Shown piece after piece: positions 9,846-19,293 of a stretch of DNA of 64,000 bases. The DNA is from Streptomyces sp. NBC_01317 (lineage in GTDB: Bacteria; Actinomycetota; Actinomycetes; Streptomycetales; Streptomycetaceae): positions 5,937,001 through 6,001,000 of the forward strand of contig NZ_CP108393.1 of the NCBI RefSeq assembly GCF_035961655.1. Reading direction: 5' to 3'. Under the pieces are notes generated by a model. That model ran no database searches. It saw nothing but the letters and a program-made list of their open reading frames with translations, and had not been told where the DNA came from. Position 1 is the first letter of the stretch. Each line of letters begins with the position of its first letter. A program made the position numbers and the translations under genes.

Positions 9846-10467
9846 GTCCTCAATCGCCGGACGGGCGTTCTGGGGCCGGTGGGCCGCGCGTCTGGGTGAC
9901 CGGGTTGCGGTTCGTGTTGTCCTCAATCGCCGGACGGGCTTTATTTGTGGCGTCTGCCCGGTGCGGGCGGGTGCGGGTTACTGATTGTCCTCAATCGCCG
10001 GACGGGCTTGATGGTGCCGCTGCGGGCCGGTGGTTTGGGTGCGGGTTGTTGCCGGGGGCCGGGCAGGGGTCGTGTCCTGCACTGCATGTTTTACGTCGCG
10101 TTCGGGGACTTCGGACATTCACGGTAGTCACGCGACACAAAACACGCTTTACGTTCCGGACACGACCCCTGCCCGTCCCCCTTCCACGCCCGCGTCAAGG
10201 CAAATCAAGCCCGTCCGGCGTTTGAGGACATCCGTAAGCCGCACCCGGCACCGGGCAGAGGCCAAAATCCAGCCTGTCCGGCGTTTGAGGACATCGGTAA
10301 GCCGCGCCCGAGCACCGCGCAGGGCCACAATCAAGCCCGTCCGGCGATTGAGGACGTTGGTAAGCGGCACCGTCCACCGGGCGGAGGTGAGGCTCCCCGG
10401 GCCGGCGGGGTCGTTCAGCTCACCCCCCGCCACCACGACACACCCAGCCCGTCCGGCGATTGAGGAC
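9846..10467. repeat. Cluster of seven copies of a 20-nt interspersed repeat
   Basis: The unit GTCCTCAATCGCCGGACGGG (usually followed by C) occurs on the plus strand at 9846-9866, 9919-9939 and 9987-10007. It occurs on the minus strand at 10209-10229, 10272-10292, 10335-10355 and 10447-10467, with T or C variants at one or two positions. Orientation flips around the hairpin element at 10060-10175, so the whole spacer is roughly mirror-symmetric. No gene is credible in this 725-bp region. GTCC/GGAC inside the unit can pair as a short stem. The function is unknown; copies recur elsewhere in the window. Confidence 0.85.
10060..10175 (-). repeat. Long hairpin element, copy 1 (possible structured RNA)
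   Basis: The 116-bp element is bounded by a perfect 18-bp inverted repeat (10060-10077 and 10158-10175, arm CGGGCAGGGGTCGTGTCC). Inside, 10085-10102 pairs with 10127-10144 as an 18-bp stem that is complete only if G.U pairs are allowed on the minus strand. The loop holds the conserved CTACCGTGAATGT. Copies 2 and 3 are at 17245-17360 and 17436-17572. I do not recognise the family. Confidence 0.7.
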
Positions 10468-10500
10468 ATCAGTAACCCGCGCCGCCCACGGGGCGAAACG

Positions 10501-11286
10501 TCACCCACGCCCAATCAACGGCATCCCCGCCGCCATCACCGTCGCGAACTGCACATTCGCCGACAGCGGCAGCCCCGCCATATGCGCCACCACCCCCGCC
10601 ACATCCCCCACGTCCATGACCGGCTCCACCGCCACCTCCCCGTTCGCCTGCGGCACGCCCCGCCGCATGCGTTCCGTCATGTCCGTCGCCGCGTTGCCGA
10701 TGTCGATCTGGCCGCACGCGATGCGGTACGCGCGGCCGTCCAGGGACAGGGACTTCGTCAGGCCGGTCACGGCGTGCTTCGTGGCGGTGTACGCGATGGA
10801 GTCCGGGCGGGGCGCGTGTGCCGAGACCGAGCCGTTGTTGATGATGCGGCCGCCCTGCGGATCCTGCGCCTTCATCTGGCGGAACGCCGCCTGCGCGCAC
10901 AGGAAGCTGCCGGTCAGGTTCGTGTCCACGACCTTCCGCCACGCCGAGAACGGCAGCTCGTCCACGGGCACGCCGCCGGGCCCGAACGTGCCCGCGTTGT
11001 TGAAGAGCAGGTCCAGCCGCCCGTACCGTTCCCGCGCCGCCGCGAAGAGCGCGTCCACCTCCTCGGGGAGGGTCACGTCCGTGGGGACGGCCAGCACGTC
11101 GTCACCGCCCGTCGCGCGGGCGAGCGCCTCCGCCGTCTCCGTCAACGCAGAGGCCGTCCGGCCCGCCAGCACCAGCGACCACCCCGCACGCCCCAGCGCG
11201 AGCGACACCGCGCGTCCGATGCCCGAACCCGCGCCCGTCACTAGTGCGATCTTGTGCTTGGAGTTGATCTCCCGCATGGCGTTCAT
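10501..11286 (-). CDS. Short-chain dehydrogenase/reductase
   Basis: The classical SDR has 261 residues. It contains cofactor motif TGAGSGIG (about 17-24), the NNAG motif (about 94-97), catalytic Ser in NNGSVSAH (about 150), and YTATK (Tyr/Lys about 165-169). The basic GRTAS after strand 2 favours NADP(H). Two starts are possible, ATG 11286 and ATG 11277; neither has a clear RBS. It is divergent from the phosphatase gene. The substrate is unknown. Confidence 0.9.
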
Positions 11287-11361
11287 GGGCCCGCAGCGTA
11301 GTTGAGGTACAGATAGGCGAGGCACGGACCGTCGTCGGGGGAGCCGTCAGGGGAGGGGCAC

Positions 11362-13023
11362 ATGACCGCCGCACACCGCCACGCACCCGAACTCAGGGCC
11401 GCCGCGCAGCGCCTCGCGGCCCTGGCGCGGGCCAGAGGCCTCCCCCGCCGCCGCCTCCTCACCGGCGCGAGCGCCGGGGCCGTCGCGCTCGCCTTCGCCG
11501 TGAACCTTCCCGCCGCCGGTGTCGCGGGCGCCGCCGAGCTGGACGCCCGGAAGGTCGCGGCGGACCCGTTCACCCTCGGCGTGGCCTCCGGCGACCCCCG
11601 CCCCGACGGCGTCCTGCTCTGGACGAGGCTCGCGCCCGACCCGTACGTACCCGACAGCGGCCTGCCTCCCGAGCGCGTCGCCGTCGGCTGGGAGGTCGCC
11701 GCCGACGCCGGGTTCGCCAGGGTCGTGGCGCGGGGCGAGGCGACCGCGCACCCCGAGTTCCACCACAGCGTGCACGTCGACGTGCGGGGCCTCGACCCCG
11801 ACCGCGTGTACTGGTTCCGCTTCCGTACCGGTACGTGGATCAGTCCGGCGGGGCGGACCCGTACCGCCCCCGCGCCCGGCGCGCTGGTGAGCCGCCTCCG
11901 GTTCGCCGCCGTCTCCTGCCAGGCGTACCACGACGGGTACTTCACCGCGTTCAGGCACCTCGCCGAGGAGGACGTGGACGTCGTCTTCCACCTGGGCGAC
12001 TACCTGTACGAGTACGCCGTGTCGTCCGTCGGCGGCGCCCGCGACTACACCGACCGCACCCTGCCCGCCGTCTTCAACCGGGAGACGGTCACGCTGGACG
12101 ACTACCGGCTGCGGTACGCGCTCTTCAAGTCCGACCCCGACCTGATGGCCGCGCACGCCGCGCACCCGTTCGTCGTCACGTGGGACGACCACGAGACCGA
12201 GAACAACTACGCCGGTGACATCCCCGAGAACTCCGTGTCCCCGGAGGAGTTCTTACTGCGCAGGGCCGCCGCCTACCGCGCGTACTGGGAGAACCAGCCG
12301 CTGGGCCCCCTCCAGGCGCCCTCGGGCCCGGACATGCGGCTCTACCGGCGGCTCCAGTACGGACGGCTCGCCCAGTTCGACGTGCTGGACACCCGGCAGT
12401 ACCGCTCCGACCAGGCGTACGGCGACGGCTGGCAGGTGCCCGGCCCGAAGTCCGAGGACCCCTCGCGCACCCTGACCGGCGAGACCCAGGAGCGCTGGCT
12501 GCTGGACGGCTGGAAGAGTTCGGCGGCGACCTGGAACGTCGTACCGCAGCAGGTCACCTTCGCCCGGCGCCGTACCGCCCCGACCGCCGGTCACAAGCTG
12601 TCGATGGACTCCTGGGACGGCTATCCGGCTTCCAGGCAGCGGCTGATGGACGGGGCCGAGGCGGCCGGTCTCGCGAACCTCATGGTGCTGTCGGGGGACG
12701 TGCACACGGGGCACGCGTACGACATCAAGAAGGACTGGGACGACCCGGACTCCCGCACGCTGGGCACCGAGATCGTGGCGACGTCCGTCACGAGCGGGAG
12801 AGACGGACAGGATCGGCCGGCTGACTGGGACACCTTCATGGCCGCCAATCCGCACATGAAGTTCTACAGCGGGCGGCGCGGCTACGTGAACGTCGAGCTG
12901 GGCCTCACGCGCGCCAGGGCGGACTTCCGTACGGTGGACGTGGTCACGGCACCGGGGGGCCCGGTCAGAACGGCGGCGTCCTTCGTGACGGAGGCGGGCA
13001 GCCCGGGCCTGAGCCCGGCCTGA
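11362..13023 (+). CDS. PhoD-like alkaline phosphatase, Tat-exported
   Basis: The 553-residue protein has a twin-arginine signal (RRRLLTG near 29-35, hydrophobic stretch, Ala-rich cleavage region about 55-60). An N-terminal PhoD domain (about 68-165) is followed by the metallophosphatase domain: FHLGDYLYEY (about 211-220), TWDDHETENNY (about 273-283), and LSGDVHTGH (about 443-451), which supply the metal ligands. It should release phosphate from phosphomono- or diesters outside the cell. ATG 11362 follows GGGGAGGGGCAC. PhoP control is usual for the family, but I do not see an unmistakable PHO box in the 75-bp spacer. Confidence 0.93.
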   Translation: MTAAHRHAPELRAAAQRLAALARARGLPRRRLLTGASAGAVALAFAVNLPAAGVAGAAELDARKVAADPFTLGVASGDPRPDGVLLWTRLAPDPYVPDSGLPPERVAVGWEVAADAGFARVVARGEATAHPEFHHSVHVDVRGLDPDRVYWFRFRTGTWISPAGRTRTAPAPGALVSRLRFAAVSCQAYHDGYFTAFRHLAEEDVDVVFHLGDYLYEYAVSSVGGARDYTDRTLPAVFNRETVTLDDYRLRYALFKSDPDLMAAHAAHPFVVTWDDHETENNYAGDIPENSVSPEEFLLRRAAAYRAYWENQPLGPLQAPSGPDMRLYRRLQYGRLAQFDVLDTRQYRSDQAYGDGWQVPGPKSEDPSRTLTGETQERWLLDGWKSSAATWNVVPQQVTFARRRTAPTAGHKLSMDSWDGYPASRQRLMDGAEAAGLANLMVLSGDVHTGHAYDIKKDWDDPDSRTLGTEIVATSVTSGRDGQDRPADWDTFMAANPHMKFYSGRRGYVNVELGLTRARADFRTVDVVTAPGGPVRTAASFVTEAGSPGLSPA

Positions 13024-13048
13024 CTGCCCGTCACCACGGCACACCCAA

Positions 13049-13069
13049 GCCCGTCCGGCGATTGAGGAC
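13049..13069 (-). repeat. 20-nt interspersed repeat, single copy
   Basis: This copy of the CCCGTCCGGCGATTGAGGAC unit lies 26 bp after the phosphatase stop codon, in the 117-bp convergent gap. A shorter degenerate copy (CGCCCGTCCGGCATGAG) follows near 13107. Confidence 0.85.
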
Positions 13070-13140
13070 ATCAGTAAGCCGCGTCCACCACCGGGCCGCA
13101 GACGCCCGTCCGGCATGAGAACACCACGCACCCCCGCGGG

Positions 13141-14205
13141 CTACGCCCGCCCCGCGTCAGCCGGAAAACGCACGCCGATCAGCGAACGCACCGCATCCAG
13201 CGTCCGCATCACCGCCAGCGTGCCGGCCAGCGGCACGAGCGGGGACTCCGTCTCGCCCGCCCGCAGGCAGCGCATCACCTCGACCGCCTCGTGCTGCATC
13301 CCCCACAGGCCGCCCGCGCCCGTGAGCCGGGCCTCCGTGATCTCCTCCGGCTCCGCCCCCGACCGCCGCAGGACGAGGCGGTCCGGGGCGAAGAAGCCCG
13401 CCGGGATCTCGATCCGGCCCTTCGTGCCGGTGACGGTGGCGGTACGGGGTGTCTCGGCCGTCACCGAGCAGGTGAGGAGCGCCGTCGCGCCCGCGTCCCA
13501 GCCCAGCAGGATCCCCGTGTTGAGGTCGGCGCCCTCGGGGGAGAGCAGCGCGTCGGCCTGGACCCGGTCCGGTTCGCCGAGCAGCAGCTGGGCGAACGAC
13601 ACCGGGTAGACGCCGAGGTCGAGCAGCGCGCCGCCGCCCAGCGCCGGGTCGCGCAGCCGGTGTTCGGGCGGGAACGGGCCCTCCAGGCCGAAGTCCGCCT
13701 GTACGGTACGGATCTCGCCGATCGCCCCGTCCCGTACGAGTGCCACCAGGTGCCGGATCACGGGGTTGCAGTACATCCACATGGCCTCCATCAGGAAGAG
13801 CCCCCGCTCCCCGGCCAGCGCCACCAGCTCGCCCGCCTCCCGGGCGTCGAGCGTGAACGCCTTCTCGCAGAGCACCGGCTTCCCGGCGGTGAGGGCCAGC
13901 CCGGCGGCGGCCCGGTGCGCGGAGTGCGGGGTGGCCACGTACACGACGTCGACGTCCTCGTCGGCGACGAGCCCGGCCCAGCTGCCGTACGCGCGCGGGA
14001 TCCCGAGCCGTCCGGCGAACTCCTTCGCCGAGGCGTCACCGCGCGAGCCGACCGCCACGATCTCGGCGTCCGGCAGTTCACCGACCTCGGTGACGAACCG
14101 TTCGGCGATCCCGCCCGTCGCCAGGACACCCCAGCGCACCGCCCGGCCGGCCGCCACCGGTGTCGCCCGAGTCGCCGGTATCGGCTGTTCCGCTTCCGCT
14201 GTCAT
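13141..14205 (-). CDS. Gfo/Idh/MocA family NAD(P)-dependent oxidoreductase
   Basis: The 354-residue protein has an N-terminal Rossmann domain (VRWGVLATGGIAERF about 23-37) and the family motif normally written EKP, here CEKAF (about 113-117). A C-terminal alpha/beta substrate domain contains GGGALLDLGVYPVSF (about 189-203). Members oxidise or reduce sugars, inositols or dihydrodiols. The start ATG 14205 has GAGGCAGG upstream. It is convergent with the phosphatase and divergent from the MFS exporter. The specific substrate is unknown. Confidence 0.9.
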   Translation of the reverse strand: MTAEAEQPIPATRATPVAAGRAVRWGVLATGGIAERFVTEVGELPDAEIVAVGSRGDASAKEFAGRLGIPRAYGSWAGLVADEDVDVVYVATPHSAHRAAAGLALTAGKPVLCEKAFTLDAREAGELVALAGERGLFLMEAMWMYCNPVIRHLVALVRDGAIGEIRTVQADFGLEGPFPPEHRLRDPALGGGALLDLGVYPVSFAQLLLGEPDRVQADALLSPEGADLNTGILLGWDAGATALLTCSVTAETPRTATVTGTKGRIEIPAGFFAPDRLVLRRSGAEPEEITEARLTGAGGLWGMQHEAVEVMRCLRAGETESPLVPLAGTLAVMRTLDAVRSLIGVRFPADAGRA

Positions 14206-14312
14206 GTGCTGCCTGCCTCATCCGTAGGTATTCGTGGGTGCCGCGTGCATCCCGGATCAATAGGTCCTGACCACTCCGCCTGAGCTGAGAGCATAGGTAA
14301 GGATTCAACGAC

Positions 14313-15719
14313 ATGGAGATGCGGATGCCTGACGGCGGGCGGACCACCGAGGGACGAATAGGCCACATAGGACCGGGGCAACTCCTGCCGGACGCGGGCA
14401 AGAGGCCGCCGGAGGAGGCGGGTTCGGGCCCGGCCGGGACGGCGGGGAAGCCGCCGTCCCGGCGCCAGGCACCTCCCCAGGACACGCAGCGGCTCGCGGA
14501 AAGCCCCACCGCCCGCCGGGCCGGGCTCCTCGTCACCCTCGTCCTGGGCGGGCTCACGGCCCTTCCCCCGCTCTCCATGGACATGTACCTCCCGGCGCTG
14601 CCCGACGTCACCGGCTCGCTCGCCGCGCCCGCCGCCACCGTCCAGATCACCCTCACCGCCTGCCTGATGGGCATGGCGCTCGGCCAGATCGTCGTCGGGC
14701 CCATGAGCGACCGGTGGGGGAGACGCGGACCGCTGCTCCTCGGCATGGTCGTCTACGTCTTCGCCACCGCCCTCTGCGCCGTCGCCCCCAACGTCGAACT
14801 CCTCATCGGCGTCCGCCTCCTCCAAGGACTGGCGGGCTCCGCGGGGATCGTCATCGCCCGTGCCGTGGTGCGTGATCTGTACGACGGGGTGGAGATGGCG
14901 CGGTTCTTCTCCACGCTGATGCTGATCTCCGGTGTCGCGCCGATCATCGCGCCGGTGATCGGCGGTCAGGTGCTGCGGCTCACCGAGTGGCGGGGCATCT
15001 TCCTCGTCCTCACCGTGATCGGCGCGCTGCTCACGTTCGTGGTGTGGAAGTGGCTCCACGAGACCCTGCCCGAGGAGAAGCGGCACAGCGGGGGTGTCGT
15101 TGAGGCGCTGCGAACGATGCGCGGGCTGCTTGCCGACCGGGTGTTCACCGGCTACATGCTGGCGGGCGGTCTCGCCTTCGCCGCGCTGTTCGCGTACATC
15201 GCGGCCTCGCCGTTTGTCGTCCAGGAGATCTACGGCGCCTCGCCGCAGATGTTCAGCCTGCTCTTCGGCGTCAACTCCGTGGGGCTGATCGTGGTCGGCC
15301 AGATCAACGGCAAGCTGCTCGTCGGCCGGGTGAGCCTGGACCGGGTGCTCGGTTTCGGGCTGGCGGTCATCCTGCTCGCCGGGGTGGCGCTGCTGCTGAT
15401 GACGACCGGGGTGTTCGGCACGGTGGGGCTCTTCCCGGTCGCCGCGGGTCTGTTCGTCCTGATGTCCGCGATGGGTCTGGCGATGCCCAACACCAACGCG
15501 CAGGCGCTGATGCGCACTCCGCACGCGGCCGGTTCGGCCTCGGCGCTCATCGGTACGTCGTCGTTCCTGATCGGGGCCGTGGCCTCGCCGCTCGTCGGGA
15601 TCGGCGGCGAGGGGACGGCGGCGCCGATGGCCCTGGTCCAGGTGGTCAGCGCGGCCGGTGCGATCGGCTGCTTCCTGGGGTTGGTACGGCCCTGGCAGCG
15701 GCGGCGGCCGACGCCGTAG
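14313..15719 (+). CDS. Bcr/CflA-type MFS multidrug exporter
   Basis: The 468-residue protein has a long hydrophilic N-terminal extension (about 1-65), then 12 predicted membrane segments. LPPLSMDMYLPALP in TM1 and the loop GPMSDRWGRRGPLL (A-motif, about 129-142) are typical of the Bcr/CflA drug:H+ antiporters. The ATG at 14313 is the first of two near starts (14313, 14322), and the extension makes the true start uncertain. Convergent with the secreted propeller-like gene downstream. The drug specificity is unknown. Confidence 0.87.
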   Translation: MEMRMPDGGRTTEGRIGHIGPGQLLPDAGKRPPEEAGSGPAGTAGKPPSRRQAPPQDTQRLAESPTARRAGLLVTLVLGGLTALPPLSMDMYLPALPDVTGSLAAPAATVQITLTACLMGMALGQIVVGPMSDRWGRRGPLLLGMVVYVFATALCAVAPNVELLIGVRLLQGLAGSAGIVIARAVVRDLYDGVEMARFFSTLMLISGVAPIIAPVIGGQVLRLTEWRGIFLVLTVIGALLTFVVWKWLHETLPEEKRHSGGVVEALRTMRGLLADRVFTGYMLAGGLAFAALFAYIAASPFVVQEIYGASPQMFSLLFGVNSVGLIVVGQINGKLLVGRVSLDRVLGFGLAVILLAGVALLLMTTGVFGTVGLFPVAAGLFVLMSAMGLAMPNTNAQALMRTPHAAGSASALIGTSSFLIGAVASPLVGIGGEGTAAPMALVQVVSAAGAIGCFLGLVRPWQRRRPTP

Positions 15720-15736
15720 GGCCTGTCCGGCGTGTG

Positions 15737-17110
15737 TCAGGGGCGCAGTGGGTACGCCGTCAGGTGCGGCCGGTCCCGGGCGTCCGTCCAGGGGAAGAGG
15801 CCCATGCCCGCCGTGCTCCCGCCCGGCAGCCGTACGTTGGGGGCCAGCGCCACCGCCTCCGGCTGCCCGGCCGTCAGGTCGACCTCGACCGGGCTGCCGC
15901 CGCCGGCCAGCGCGTCGGTCACCGAGCGGGCCAGGGCCGCGCCGTACGCGGTGCCCTCGTCCGTCACGGCCGTCAGGGTCAGCGGACCGGTGCCGTCCGC
16001 CTCCTCGAAGCACTGGCCCTTCCCCGTCGCCAGGTCGAAGGCGAGGCGGCCGGCGATCAGGTAGCGGCCGGTGGGGGAGAGGGCGGGCTGCGGCGCGTCG
16101 ACGGGCGCGAGCGCGGGCCTGCGGCAGCGCGTGCGGGCCAGCACCTTGCCGGTGGTCATGTCGTGCACCGCCCAGGTCTCGTGCGTGGCCGTGTCCTTCG
16201 CTTTCCTCTTGCCCTGCCAGCGGGCGAGGATCCGGCCCGGTGCGACGGATGACAGCACTCCGGAGGCGGGTGCGGTGCCCGTGGGGGCGACCGTACGGCT
16301 GAACCAGCCGCCACGGACCCAGAATTCGGCCGCGCCGCCCACCAGTACGCCCTGCTCGGTCACGGCGCGCAGTTCGGTCAGCCGGCCGCACTCCCGGCAG
16401 CCCTTCGGCCGGCCGAGCGCGCCGGGCTCCACCCGGGACACCCCGCCGGTCGCCGGGTCGACCACCGCGCCGGTGGCCTTCCCGTCGCTGATCAGTACGC
16501 GGGGTCCTGCGGCGGTCACGACGGGCGCGGCGGGCCAGGGCACTTCGACGCGGCGGCGGGCGCCGGTCGTCGCGTCGTACACGTCGAGGGAGACGATCGT
16601 GTCGGAGGGCGCCGGGGCGGTCGCGTCGAGCTTTCCGTACGACCAGGTCACGAAGTACGCGCTGCCGTCGGCGGCGGTGACGGCCAGCAGGCGGGGGGCG
16701 AGGCCGGGGGCGAACAGCGCGCGGGTGGGCGTGCCTTCCCAGCCGCGTTCGCCGGACGCCGGGTCGAGCGTCCGCAGCCGGAAGCGGTTCTCCCCGGCGC
16801 TCTCCAGGTGGGCGAGGCGGGTCGCGGTACCGACCCCGGCGAGCGCGTACGCGAGCGTGGACGTGGGCGTGTACGCCGGCGCGGGCGCGGGGCCGGTGAT
16901 CTCCCAGCCGCGTGCGGTGTCGTAGACGGGCGGAACGGTGAGCCGGGCCGGGGGCGCGACGCTCCTGGCCCCTGGCTTCTCGTCGCCCCGGGCGGCTTTG
17001 GCTTCGGCGCCGCCTTCTTCGGCGCGGTCACCGTAGACGGCGAGGAGGACGAAGAACGCCACCACGATGCTGCCGGCCAGCAAGGACAGGCGTAAGGCCC
17101 GCTGTCTCAT
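15737..17110 (-). CDS. Membrane-anchored extracytoplasmic protein, beta-propeller-like
   Basis: The 457-residue protein has one N-terminal membrane anchor (LSLLAGSIVVAFFVLLAVYG, about 9-28) and an Ala/Glu/Lys linker. About 380 residues follow of repeated short beta-type segments such as LDVYDATTGARR, VVDPATGGVSR, VHDMTTGKVLA and AFDLATGKG, suggestive of a quinoprotein-like propeller. One CxxC (CRECG, near 240) and a few other cysteines are present. ATG 17110 is the only start giving the full anchor. No enzymatic motif is visible. I cannot name a function; the protein is probably extracytoplasmic and soluble apart from the anchor. Confidence 0.75.
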   Translation of the reverse strand: MRQRALRLSLLAGSIVVAFFVLLAVYGDRAEEGGAEAKAARGDEKPGARSVAPPARLTVPPVYDTARGWEITGPAPAPAYTPTSTLAYALAGVGTATRLAHLESAGENRFRLRTLDPASGERGWEGTPTRALFAPGLAPRLLAVTAADGSAYFVTWSYGKLDATAPAPSDTIVSLDVYDATTGARRRVEVPWPAAPVVTAAGPRVLISDGKATGAVVDPATGGVSRVEPGALGRPKGCRECGRLTELRAVTEQGVLVGGAAEFWVRGGWFSRTVAPTGTAPASGVLSSVAPGRILARWQGKRKAKDTATHETWAVHDMTTGKVLARTRCRRPALAPVDAPQPALSPTGRYLIAGRLAFDLATGKGQCFEEADGTGPLTLTAVTDEGTAYGAALARSVTDALAGGGSPVEVDLTAGQPEAVALAPNVRLPGGSTAGMGLFPWTDARDRPHLTAYPLRP

Positions 17111-17170
17111 GGTCCCCCCGGGGGTGAGATCGGCCGCGTGCCCGGTGCGGGTGGGTGCGGCTTACTGATT

Positions 17171-17191
17171 GTCCTCAATCGCCGGACGGGC
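17171..17191 (+). repeat. 20-nt interspersed repeat, single copy
   Basis: A perfect copy of GTCCTCAATCGCCGGACGGG. It lies inside a segment of about 230 bp that is nearly identical to 9964-10195. Confidence 0.85.
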
Positions 17192-17244
17192 TTGATTGTG
17201 CCCGCTGCGGGCCGGTTGCGTATGCGCGGGTTGTTGCCGGGGGC

Positions 17245-17360
17245 CGGGCAGGGGCCGTGTCCTGCACTGCATGTTTTACGTCGCGTTCGGGAACCCCGAA
17301 CATTCACGGTAGCCACGCGACACAAAACACGCTCTACGTTCCGGACACGACCCCTGCCCG
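17245..17360 (-). repeat. Long hairpin element, copy 2 (possible structured RNA)
   Basis: The 116-bp element has outer arms 17245-17262 and 17343-17360, matching copy 1 except one base (T to C at the eleventh arm position on the plus strand). On the minus strand this difference keeps a G.U pair. The inner 18-bp stem and the loop CTACCGTGAATGT are conserved. The loop additionally forms GTTCGGG/CCCGAAC. Confidence 0.7.
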
Positions 17361-17435
17361 TCCCCCTTCCCGGCCCGCGTTACCACCCGGCCCACCCCAG
17401 GCGGGGAGTCGTTGCGTCTCCCGTCCGGCGTGAGG

Positions 17436-17572
17436 GGGGTGGGGTCGGAGGAGGTGCGTGTGTCCGGACGTAAAGCGTGTTTTGTGGCGCATGACTACCG
17501 TGAATGTCCGGAGCTCCTGAGGCGCCGTAAAACATGCAGTCCGGACATACGTACCTCCGCAGGCCCCACCCC
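17436..17572 (+). repeat. Long hairpin element, copy 3, opposite orientation (possible structured RNA)
   Basis: The 137-bp element has outer arms of about 34 bp (17436-17469 and 17539-17572) whose sequence differs completely from copies 1 and 2 yet still pairs, with several mismatches that are G.U on the plus strand. The inner stem (about 17475-17490 with 17523-17538) keeps the same three G.U pairs as the other copies. One U-A pair there is replaced by G-C. The loop contains CTACCGTGAATGT. Confidence 0.7.
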
Positions 17573-17592
17573 CCGCCACCACGACACACCCA

Positions 17593-17675
17593 GCCCGTCC
17601 GGCGATTGAGGACATCAGTAACCCGCGCGCGCACCGGGCAGAGGCCACAACCAAGCCCGTCCGGCGATTGAGGAC
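17593..17675 (-). repeat. Two copies of the 20-nt interspersed repeat
   Basis: Minus-orientation copies lie at 17593-17613 and 17655-17675. About 60 bp around the first copy (from CACCCCCCGCCACCACGACA onward) are identical to 10428-10480. The second copy ends 5 bp before the target duplication of the insertion sequence. Confidence 0.85.
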
Positions 17676-17685
17676 AAGCACTAAG

Positions 17686-19293
17686 CTTGTTGTTTAACGT
17701 CCGTCCCTGAGAGGCCAGTTGGCGCCTGACGGGCGATGCGGCAGTGGTACGGCCTTGGTGTGATCATGTGCGTTGTCGAGACGCTGTTGATCATGCCAAG
17801 GCCGCGAGGGTGAGTCTGCTGTACAACGCTGTTCGCGTCGAGTCCCTGACCGTGTTGTCCCGGTTCCGGACCGACTTCTACGACTGCCTGACCGCCCGCG
17901 CGGACGCACTGTTCGAGCTGACCGACGCCGTGCTGTGCACCGACGGACCGGTACGGTCGCTGGTCGACCTCGCCCTGGCACCCGAGCACCGCCGGGGTCA
18001 CGGTTCCCTCTACGCCGGCCTGAACCGCGGCGGGCTCGATGTCGCCCGGTTGCGGCGCGCGCTGGCCGGGGTTCCGCTGCCGCGGGCGGGCGACGGGCGG
18101 CTGGTCCTGGCGGTGGACGTCTCGCCGTGGCTGCGGCCGGACGCCGGGACCGTGCCGGACCGCTCGTTCTGTCACACCTACGGCCGTGGCAACGCCAAGC
18201 ACCAGATGATGCCCGGCTGGCCGTACTCGGTGGTCGTCGCCCTGGAGGCCGGCCGCACCTCCTGGTCGGCGTTCCTGGACGCGGTCCGGCTGGCCCCCGG
18301 CGCGGACCTGGCGGCGGTCACCGCCCGCCAGGTCGGCGAGGTGGTCGAACGGCTCGTCGCGGCGGGCCAGTGGAGCGAGGGTGACCCGGACGTCCTGATC
18401 GTCCTGGACGCCGGATACGACGCCCCGCGCATCGCCCACCTGCTGTCCGGCCTGCCGGTCGAGATCCTGGGCCGGACACGGTCGGACCGGGTGATGCGCC
18501 GCCCGGCACCCTCGCGGGAAGAGTTTCTCCGTGCGAACCCGAAGGGTGGACGGCCGCCCAAGCACGGCGGGGAGTTCGTCTTCGGCGACCCCGCGACCTG
18601 GGGTGAGGAGCAGGCCGTCACGGTCACCGGCACCCGCCTCTACGGCACGGCGACCGCGCGGGCCTGGGACCGGCTCCACCCGCGGCTGACCCAGCGGGCC
18701 GCCTGGCTCGACCACGACGGCCCGCTGCCGGTCATCGAAGGCACCGTCATCCGCCTGTCAGTCGAACACCTGCCGTCCGGCGGGGTCAACAAGCCGGTCT
18801 GGCTGTGGTGGTCCCGCACCGGCGCCACCGAAGCCGACGTCGACCGCTGCTGGCAGGCGTTCCTGCGACGCTTCGACATCGAGCACACCTTCCGCATGCT
18901 CAAGCAGACCCTCGGCTGGACCCGGCCCCGCCTGCGCGACTCGGCCGCCGCCGACCGCTGGACCTGGCTAATCATCGCCGCCCACACCCAACTCCGCCTC
19001 GCCCGCCCCCTCGCGACCGACCTCCGCCGACCGTGGGAGAAGCCAGCGCCGCCGCACAAACTCACACCGGCCCGCGTCCGGCGCGGGTTCCGGAACCTCC
19101 GCACGACGACCGGTTCGCCGGCCGGGGCACCGAAACCCACCACACCCGGCCCTGGACGCCCGCCCGGCTCGAAGAACCACAGACCTGCACCCCACCACGA
19201 CGTGGGACGAGTCCTCACCGGCAGCGAGGCATACCAGCGACCGGCCCACCACAAGGTCGGCACCAAACCCCGACGAACTGGTTAAAAAACAAG
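17686..19293 (+). mobile_element. Complete insertion sequence with DDE transposase (IS701-like, NF041680-type)
   Basis: The ends are imperfect inverted repeats CTTGTTGTTTAAC (17686-17698) and GTTAAAAAACAAG (19281-19293), matching at 12 of 13 positions. They are flanked by direct repeats CTAAG (17681-17685 and 19294-19298). The exact edge is ambiguous by 1-2 bp because the flank itself contains CTAAGC. The 1608-bp element carries one intact transposase gene ending 8 bp before the right edge. It inserted in the spacer between a leftward gene (start 17110) and the Rsm22-like gene (start 19339). Confidence 0.85.
17810..19285 (+). CDS. Transposase (DDE type)
   Basis: The 491-residue protein matches in overall pattern the large Streptomyces transposases starting SLLYNAVRVESLTVLSRFR. 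Likely catalytic residues are Asp in LVLAVDVSPW (about 103-108), Asp in VLIVLDAGYDAP (about 200-205) and Glu in RRFDIEHTFRMLKQ (about 353-366), the last resembling the Y/F-E-H transposase signature. The GTG at 17810 is chosen because homology-like sequence starts there; in-frame GTGs at 17744 and 17768 would add a tail unlike a protein. The C-terminal 60 residues are Pro/Arg-rich. The gene is intact, so the element may be active. Confidence 0.85.
   Translation: MSLLYNAVRVESLTVLSRFRTDFYDCLTARADALFELTDAVLCTDGPVRSLVDLALAPEHRRGHGSLYAGLNRGGLDVARLRRALAGVPLPRAGDGRLVLAVDVSPWLRPDAGTVPDRSFCHTYGRGNAKHQMMPGWPYSVVVALEAGRTSWSAFLDAVRLAPGADLAAVTARQVGEVVERLVAAGQWSEGDPDVLIVLDAGYDAPRIAHLLSGLPVEILGRTRSDRVMRRPAPSREEFLRANPKGGRPPKHGGEFVFGDPATWGEEQAVTVTGTRLYGTATARAWDRLHPRLTQRAAWLDHDGPLPVIEGTVIRLSVEHLPSGGVNKPVWLWWSRTGATEADVDRCWQAFLRRFDIEHTFRMLKQTLGWTRPRLRDSAAADRWTWLIIAAHTQLRLARPLATDLRRPWEKPAPPHKLTPARVRRGFRNLRTTTGSPAGAPKPTTPGPGRPPGSKNHRPAPHHDVGRVLTGSEAYQRPAHHKVGTKPRRTG

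Follow-up and report, generated by a model that had tools for sequence, protein, structure and literature searches.

A widespread, structure-conserved family of interspersed hairpins in Streptomyces, enriched downstream of genes and in convergent gaps

Introduction

Several described systems resemble the hairpins reported here, which occur in a 64,000-nucleotide stretch of the genome of Streptomyces sp. NBC_01317 (NZ_CP108393.1, positions 5,937,001 to 6,001,000 of the forward strand; hereafter the window), elsewhere in the same genome and in relatives of this species. In the parts of each source on which we draw throughout, REPINs of the REPIN/RAYT system are dispersed, extragenic and present in many copies, with strongly conserved inverted arms that enclose a variable spacer, a single-strand hairpin and compensatory changes (PMC3116915). 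The BIME/REP elements of enterobacteria are palindromic repeats that often lie between convergent genes, as mosaics of several motifs (PMC1525189), and GTAG- and CGTC-tagged REPs form inverted dimers found mostly downstream of genes, the CGTC type having no dedicated transposase (PMC3733652). The MRSC-65-2 motif is a single long covarying stem, often in dozens of copies per genome and possibly relevant at the DNA level (PMC11109978), and the bidirectional or U-tract-less terminators of GC-rich bacteria combine a GC-rich hairpin at gene ends with bidirectional transcript ends; in S. clavuligerus, transcripts are described that end at a GC stem-loop lacking a U-rich tract (PMC8269248).

The Streptomyces hairpins share features with each of these systems and form a real, widespread, structure-conserved repeat family, whose members covary, favor wobble pairs on one strand near the core, occur as inverted pairs and are concentrated behind genes. 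No tested family takes them in completely: as described below, most carriers tested have no RAYT gene, the window copies have no U-tract, and Rfam gave no match.

Hairpins of the Window and Their Genome-Wide Copies

An initial annotation, made by a model from the DNA letters, had described a family of three long hairpins in the window as a candidate structured RNA. All three are present:

10060..10175, minus strand: copy 1 of the hairpin (type B), unpaired, with its conserved inner core at 10074-10161
17245..17360, minus strand: copy 2 of the hairpin (type B), which opens an inverted B(-)/A(+) pair
17436..17572, plus strand: copy 3 of the hairpin (type A), which completes the inverted pair begun by copy 2

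The structural description given for them holds as well: the same three inner G.U pairs are seen in all copies, one U-A pair is replaced by G-C in copy 3, a loop motif is common to the copies, and the outer arms of copy 3 differ in sequence while retaining pairing, with further G.U pairs in the sense strand. The sense strands of copies 1, 2 and 3 reach folding energies of -70.3, -77.9 and -94.7 kcal/mol (z of -9.9, -9.0 and -10.5), with 0 of 200 shuffled controls folding as well in each case, and the opposite strands are weaker (-64.7, -59.5 and -74.2 kcal/mol). A T run, as expected of a canonical terminator, is absent on either side of these three window copies, to which the U-tract check was applied. 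At the gathering threshold of Rfam nothing in the window matched at the hairpins; the only match was the bacterial class A RNase P RNA at 782-1185.

The number three, by contrast, was far too low. The stem 14-mer CGTAAAACATGCAG has 94 exact occurrences in the 8.07-Mb genome (one additional site with one mismatch; one match for the reversed control sequence), and the 84-nt core of copy 3 matches at least 40 places. The 94 copies divide into 45 of type A, like copy 3, and 49 of type B, like copies 1 and 2; they form 43 inverted A+B pairs, with 8 left as singles. Every pair runs minus then plus and joins an A with a B (22 BA, 21 AB), copies 2 and 3 being one instance of this recurring two-hairpin module. 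Within-pair spacing is 258-514 bp and, by eye, changes in steps of about 62-63 bp, about the period of the companion unit described below. The stem arms match their consensus at 0.99-1.00 across the genome copies, the loops at 0.82 (A) and 0.80 (B), and the 5' flanks at 0.90 and 0.80, respectively.

Conserved Fold and Covariation

The fold was compared in a MAFFT alignment of 56 sequences, composed of 54 representatives of 123 unique hairpins from other genomes and two window copies. Pairing is kept in 91.1% of cells, and 15 of the 24 pairs are changed on both sides, in 83 cells. None of 500 shuffles reaches these values and slid versions score lower, although both controls leave some effect of sequence relatedness. 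The hairpin family is thus a conserved structured nucleic acid by compensatory changes beyond the shuffled and slid controls, which bears out the covariation that the initial annotation had read from three copies.

The inner stem, with the consensus ACGTARAGCGTG[A/T]TTTGTGGCGC ... GCGCCGTAAA[T/A]CATGCAGT, is kept in sequence beyond what pairing alone would require. Two of its wobbles are retained in 51 and 54 of the 56 sequences and a third pair is U.G in 33; some departures from pairing are no wobble, since one inner pair is A.C in 11. An asymmetric internal loop reads GTARA or resembles CACTCAA, with GTAG present inside some of the GTARA versions, and each hairpin has a free loop of about 30 nt. 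The outer arms vary between species and still pair in 116 of the 117 external hairpins scored. In the consensus fold of the own genome, six pair positions change in a single step to G.U in the sense strand and none to A.C; a few other positions show G-A, G-G or C-C, some of them in helices outside the main arms.

A conserved stem, variable loops and covariation are also what a small regulatory RNA family would present if its loops served in target recognition. We consider this very improbable, as the loops resemble mosaics of a few blocks by eye and loops within pairs are no more alike than those of shuffled pairs (0.71 versus 0.723, a likeness equalled or exceeded in 428 of 500 shuffles). Loops were read for 93 of the 94 copies (the left stem motif is altered in one A copy), and 0 of 93 resembled the reverse complement of another at >0.8, so that loop flipping was not seen. 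Some A-type loops of this genome hold a short open frame (ATG GCT ACC GGT GAA CTG GAC GAG TTC CTG) that resembles the N-termini of XRE-type regulators, presumably by coincidence, since this frame is not maintained. A coding function of the loop was rejected, because its length varies by one base from copy to copy and different species carry different loops altogether.

Strand Bias of the Wobble Pairs

Since orientation is set by the inner stem, the outer arms provide an independent test of strand. Among isolated mismatches, i.e., those flanked by Watson-Crick pairs and within 26 nt, 118 hairpins hold 74 G.T against 6 A.C (74 against 5 under the other tie rule), and a clustered set of 51 holds 44 against 2. 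Counted as distinct mismatch contexts within 26 nt the ratio is 35 to 3, and with stricter neighbors required it is 10 to 1. Folding the 20-nt outer arms alone gives the same direction: the sense strand is better in 84 and the antisense strand in 18 of the 118 hairpins, and in the clustered set 43 of 51 show a difference, 40 in favor of sense and 3 of antisense. We take the strand bias as real near the core and as uncertain past about 26 nt. Strand-biased C-to-T mutation could be a partial source of it, for which selection would not be needed.

Gene Context and a Possible Role at Transcript Ends

Gene context was assigned from gene calls based on third-codon-position GC content (GC3) and made in this analysis. 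The genome holds 51 modules (pairs or singles), of which 44 have enough flank; 28 of these lie between convergent genes, 14 between tandem genes and 1 between divergent genes, 1 has a single neighbor called, and none of the 44 overlaps a called gene. In other genomes 109 groups were found, 86 of which could be classified (13 lay at a locus edge, 7 were unclear and 3 too far away), and these comprise 40 convergent, 41 tandem and 5 divergent modules. Element-free gaps of at least 100 bp in the same loci are convergent in only 13 of 136 cases, an excess for the external modules of p = 5e-10. Most modules, though not all, thus place a strong hairpin behind a gene. The statement that the elements avoid gene ends is therefore not supported at the scale of the genome. 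Copy 1 itself stands in sense behind the minus-strand gene 10501-11286, and the window pair is the sole divergent module among the 43 own modules with both neighbors called.

Individual gaps were followed across species, the genes being named from reading of their translations and some domain matches. The gap between convergent genes for an ABC and an MFS transporter contains a family hairpin in seven genomes, and the gap between a cobT-like gene and a methylase gene contains one in five, in sense in all of them. Thirty ABC loci were then inspected, including that of genome G159, already among the seven; the next gene is convergent in 8, and the remainder have a different gap arrangement. The G004 locus carries a diverged form of the family hairpin, and four convergent loci (L254, L258, L270 and L278) carry strong hairpins unrelated to the family. 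Similarly, a family module occupies the 651-bp gap behind an ffh-like gene of this genome, which we take to be ffh, and in 20 of 23 same-genus loci the corresponding gap holds a single compact, unrelated GC-rich hairpin (of the other three, one was not located, one was masked and one has a gap of 13 bp). Strong hairpins of any kind thus seem to be kept in the ffh-like and ABC gaps, a place that the family seems to fill in some species.

We give roughly even odds (about 0.5) to the reading that the family consists of REPIN/BIME-like interspersed palindromes without a recognised mobiliser that serve as bidirectional 3'-end hairpins. Two unlike units, A and B, are set head-out and inverted in this species, and judged by eye several others have the same layout. 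Either of two convergent transcripts would thereby run across the gap and encounter, at its distal end, one hairpin in the orientation that folds better. The folded single strand at the transcript 3' ends could then act as a bidirectional, U-tract-less termination hairpin or as a 3'-protection hairpin, and the copies may have been multiplied by some enzyme that is RAYT-like in effect.

Companion Unit and a Possible DNA-Level Element

A short palindromic unit, GTCCGGCGATTGAGGAC, accompanies the hairpins on both sides:

9846-9862, 9919-9935 and 9987-10003, minus strand: three companion units beside copy 1
Starts at 10213, 10276, 10339 and 10451 (within 10213..10467), plus strand: four such units on the opposite flank of copy 1
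17171..17187, minus strand: companion unit left of the copy 2/3 pair
17597-17613 and 17659-17675, plus strand: two companion units right of the copy 2/3 pair

The units starting at 10213, 10276 and 10339 follow each other at 63-base intervals. Within the window such units are found at 9846-10467, 13053, 17171-17675 and 51133, and 369 occur in the genome with at most one mismatch. In genome G360 the unit reads GGCCGGCGATTGAGGCC, with its small stem changed on both sides. It is possibly a separate REP-like family.

Together with the enrichment in convergent gaps, this mosaic of two hairpin types and short palindromic units would fit a BIME-like DNA element, in which gyrase or a nucleoid protein would bind the duplex or an extruded palindrome at sites where supercoiling is increased by convergent transcription, and so would an inner stem conserved in sequence beyond pairing. 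Duplex binding leaves the covariation of the outer arms and the one-strand G.U bias unexplained, however, and we regard such an element as quite unlikely.

Distribution and Search for a Mobiliser

With a strict sequence pattern, the sole relative matched among 391 other genomes of the genus was in G338. A covariance model (R1) built from eight copies and the G338 relative found matches in 46 of 392 genomes of the genus at E <= 1e-3 and in 43 of 391 genomes of the order at E <= 1e-4, the own genome included in both. The latter all belong to one genus of ten, in a scan for which the number of genomes outside the carrier genus is not stated; both scans used stricter filters, with which weak matches are lost. 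Carriers include S. goshikiensis, narbonensis, exfoliatus, gardneri, virginiae, avidinii, jumonjinensis and griseoluteus, among others. Inverted minus-plus pairs are also found in other genomes, and by eye the outer arms of the pairs in G241, G360 and G370 are A- and B-like. One member in G370 (L175, 1765-1854) has inner stem halves that are exact complements and scores nearly equally on both strands, as would result from the copying of one arm onto its partner. No phage matched the B copy of the window.

Some carriers have at least 11 copies and most genomes no R1 match, a pattern expected if the family were chiefly a non-autonomous mobile element that folds during transposition, its sense strand being then single-stranded DNA, and if its gene-end sites reflected only tolerance of insertion. 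Near-invariant arms with varying loops and flanks, a 73% match to a relative's copy in one plasmid record, and an orientation almost independent of transcription, and mixed at the ABC/MFS gap, favor this explanation too. As regards a MITE derived from a DDE transposon, the 44 own modules examined overlap no called gene and the spacing within pairs does not exceed 514 bp. Its enzyme was sought as the Y1/RAYT transposase domain PF01797 in 16 genomes, 10 carriers and 6 without a family match. The domain was not found in seven of the carriers (this genome, i.e., G000, and G241, G090, G189, G360, G370 and G338), six of which hold at least 11 family matches; it was matched in carriers G273, G114 and G294 and in one of the six genomes without the family. 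Neither was a transposase found among the 25 listed of the 103 protein families in 99 of 189 flanking proteins, the 78 rarer families lying outside this list, nor was a target duplication of the family elements. A mainly mobile element is therefore possible, but to our judgement somewhat unlikely.

An insertion sequence (IS) of 1,610 bp beside the window pair (17684-19293) encodes an NF041680 transposase, distantly IS701-like, and has ends CTTGTT.../...AACAAG and a 5-bp duplication, CTAAG. As mobiliser of the family it was rejected, its ends and 5-bp target duplication being its own and unrelated to the hairpins. Its gene was found in one further identical copy in the genome (7,217,693-7,219,231), and there too a family hairpin is about 155 bp away, which suggests that this IS prefers, or is tolerated at, family modules.

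Several observations weigh against the proposed role as bidirectional 3'-end hairpins. Singles in tandem gaps are oriented nearly evenly relative to the upstream gene (20 sense, 14 antisense, p = 0.39; own tandem singles 3 and 2), which counts against a transcript-end role because such a signal should be mostly in sense, and at the ABC/MFS gap orientation is mixed, with 4 hairpins in sense with the ABC gene and 3 with the MFS gene. No clean empty site was found, the ffh-like locus included. The near-identical arms of the 94 copies exceed what a terminator needs and suggest copying or homogenisation. Finally, a loose count over 40-nt arms in 116 hairpins shows no bias (146 G.T, 133 A.C), and distinct contexts with arms taken to 40 nt give 40 against 35. 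Of the G.U bias that the initial annotation had proposed, the part near the core stands, outer arms included, whereas the looser counts do not carry it further out. Its inference of a folded RNA under selection likewise survives in part: covariation and wobble bias are borne out, the latter perhaps partly by mutation, but the near-even orientation of the tandem singles gives no preference to RNA over single-stranded DNA.

Comparison with Described Repeats and Significance

The Streptomyces hairpins satisfy the REPIN architecture in having two inverted conserved arms, a variable spacer and a hairpin, but differ in that no RAYT gene was found in seven of the ten carriers tested, in their conserved wobbles and asymmetric internal loop, in the fixed inverted A/B pairs of this genome and in the convergent-gap enrichment. 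They share with BIMEs the intergenic mosaic of several palindromic motifs, the comparison being one of description, not of sequence. REPs are much shorter than the 116-137 nt of these hairpins. The GTAG- and CGTC-tagged REPs are likewise units of only 20-40 bp, and the words Streptomyces and Actinobacteria are absent from the main text of that source (PMC3733652). MRSC-65-2, again compared by description only, differs in occurring in diverse phyla and in its UYCCGG repeat (PMC11109978). For the terminators of GC-rich bacteria no repeated family is described in the part of the source used (PMC8269248), whereas the Streptomyces inner stem is repeated and conserved in sequence across species. A description of the hairpin family was not found in the literature searched, a search outside of which subscription papers mostly fall, and its sequence strings returned a single, unrelated plant paper.

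The most far-reaching version of the proposal would be that of genus-wide, strand-specific, single-stranded hairpins, built as ancient inverted A/B modules with free loops and species-specific outer arms that still pair. An enzyme yet to be recognised would copy or process them and so keep them identical at dozens of loci, and the cell would use them as two-way stops between convergent genes; as a whole we find this rather doubtful.

Streptomyces genomes have been heavily mined, and their transcript ends and convergent gaps have been studied less than their promoters. A repeated, covarying hairpin of conserved sequence would offer a searchable mark for convergent gaps and a candidate part for bidirectional termination. 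Because RAYT was not found in most of the carriers tested, the family is also a test case for how REPIN-like repeats may persist without a known mobiliser.

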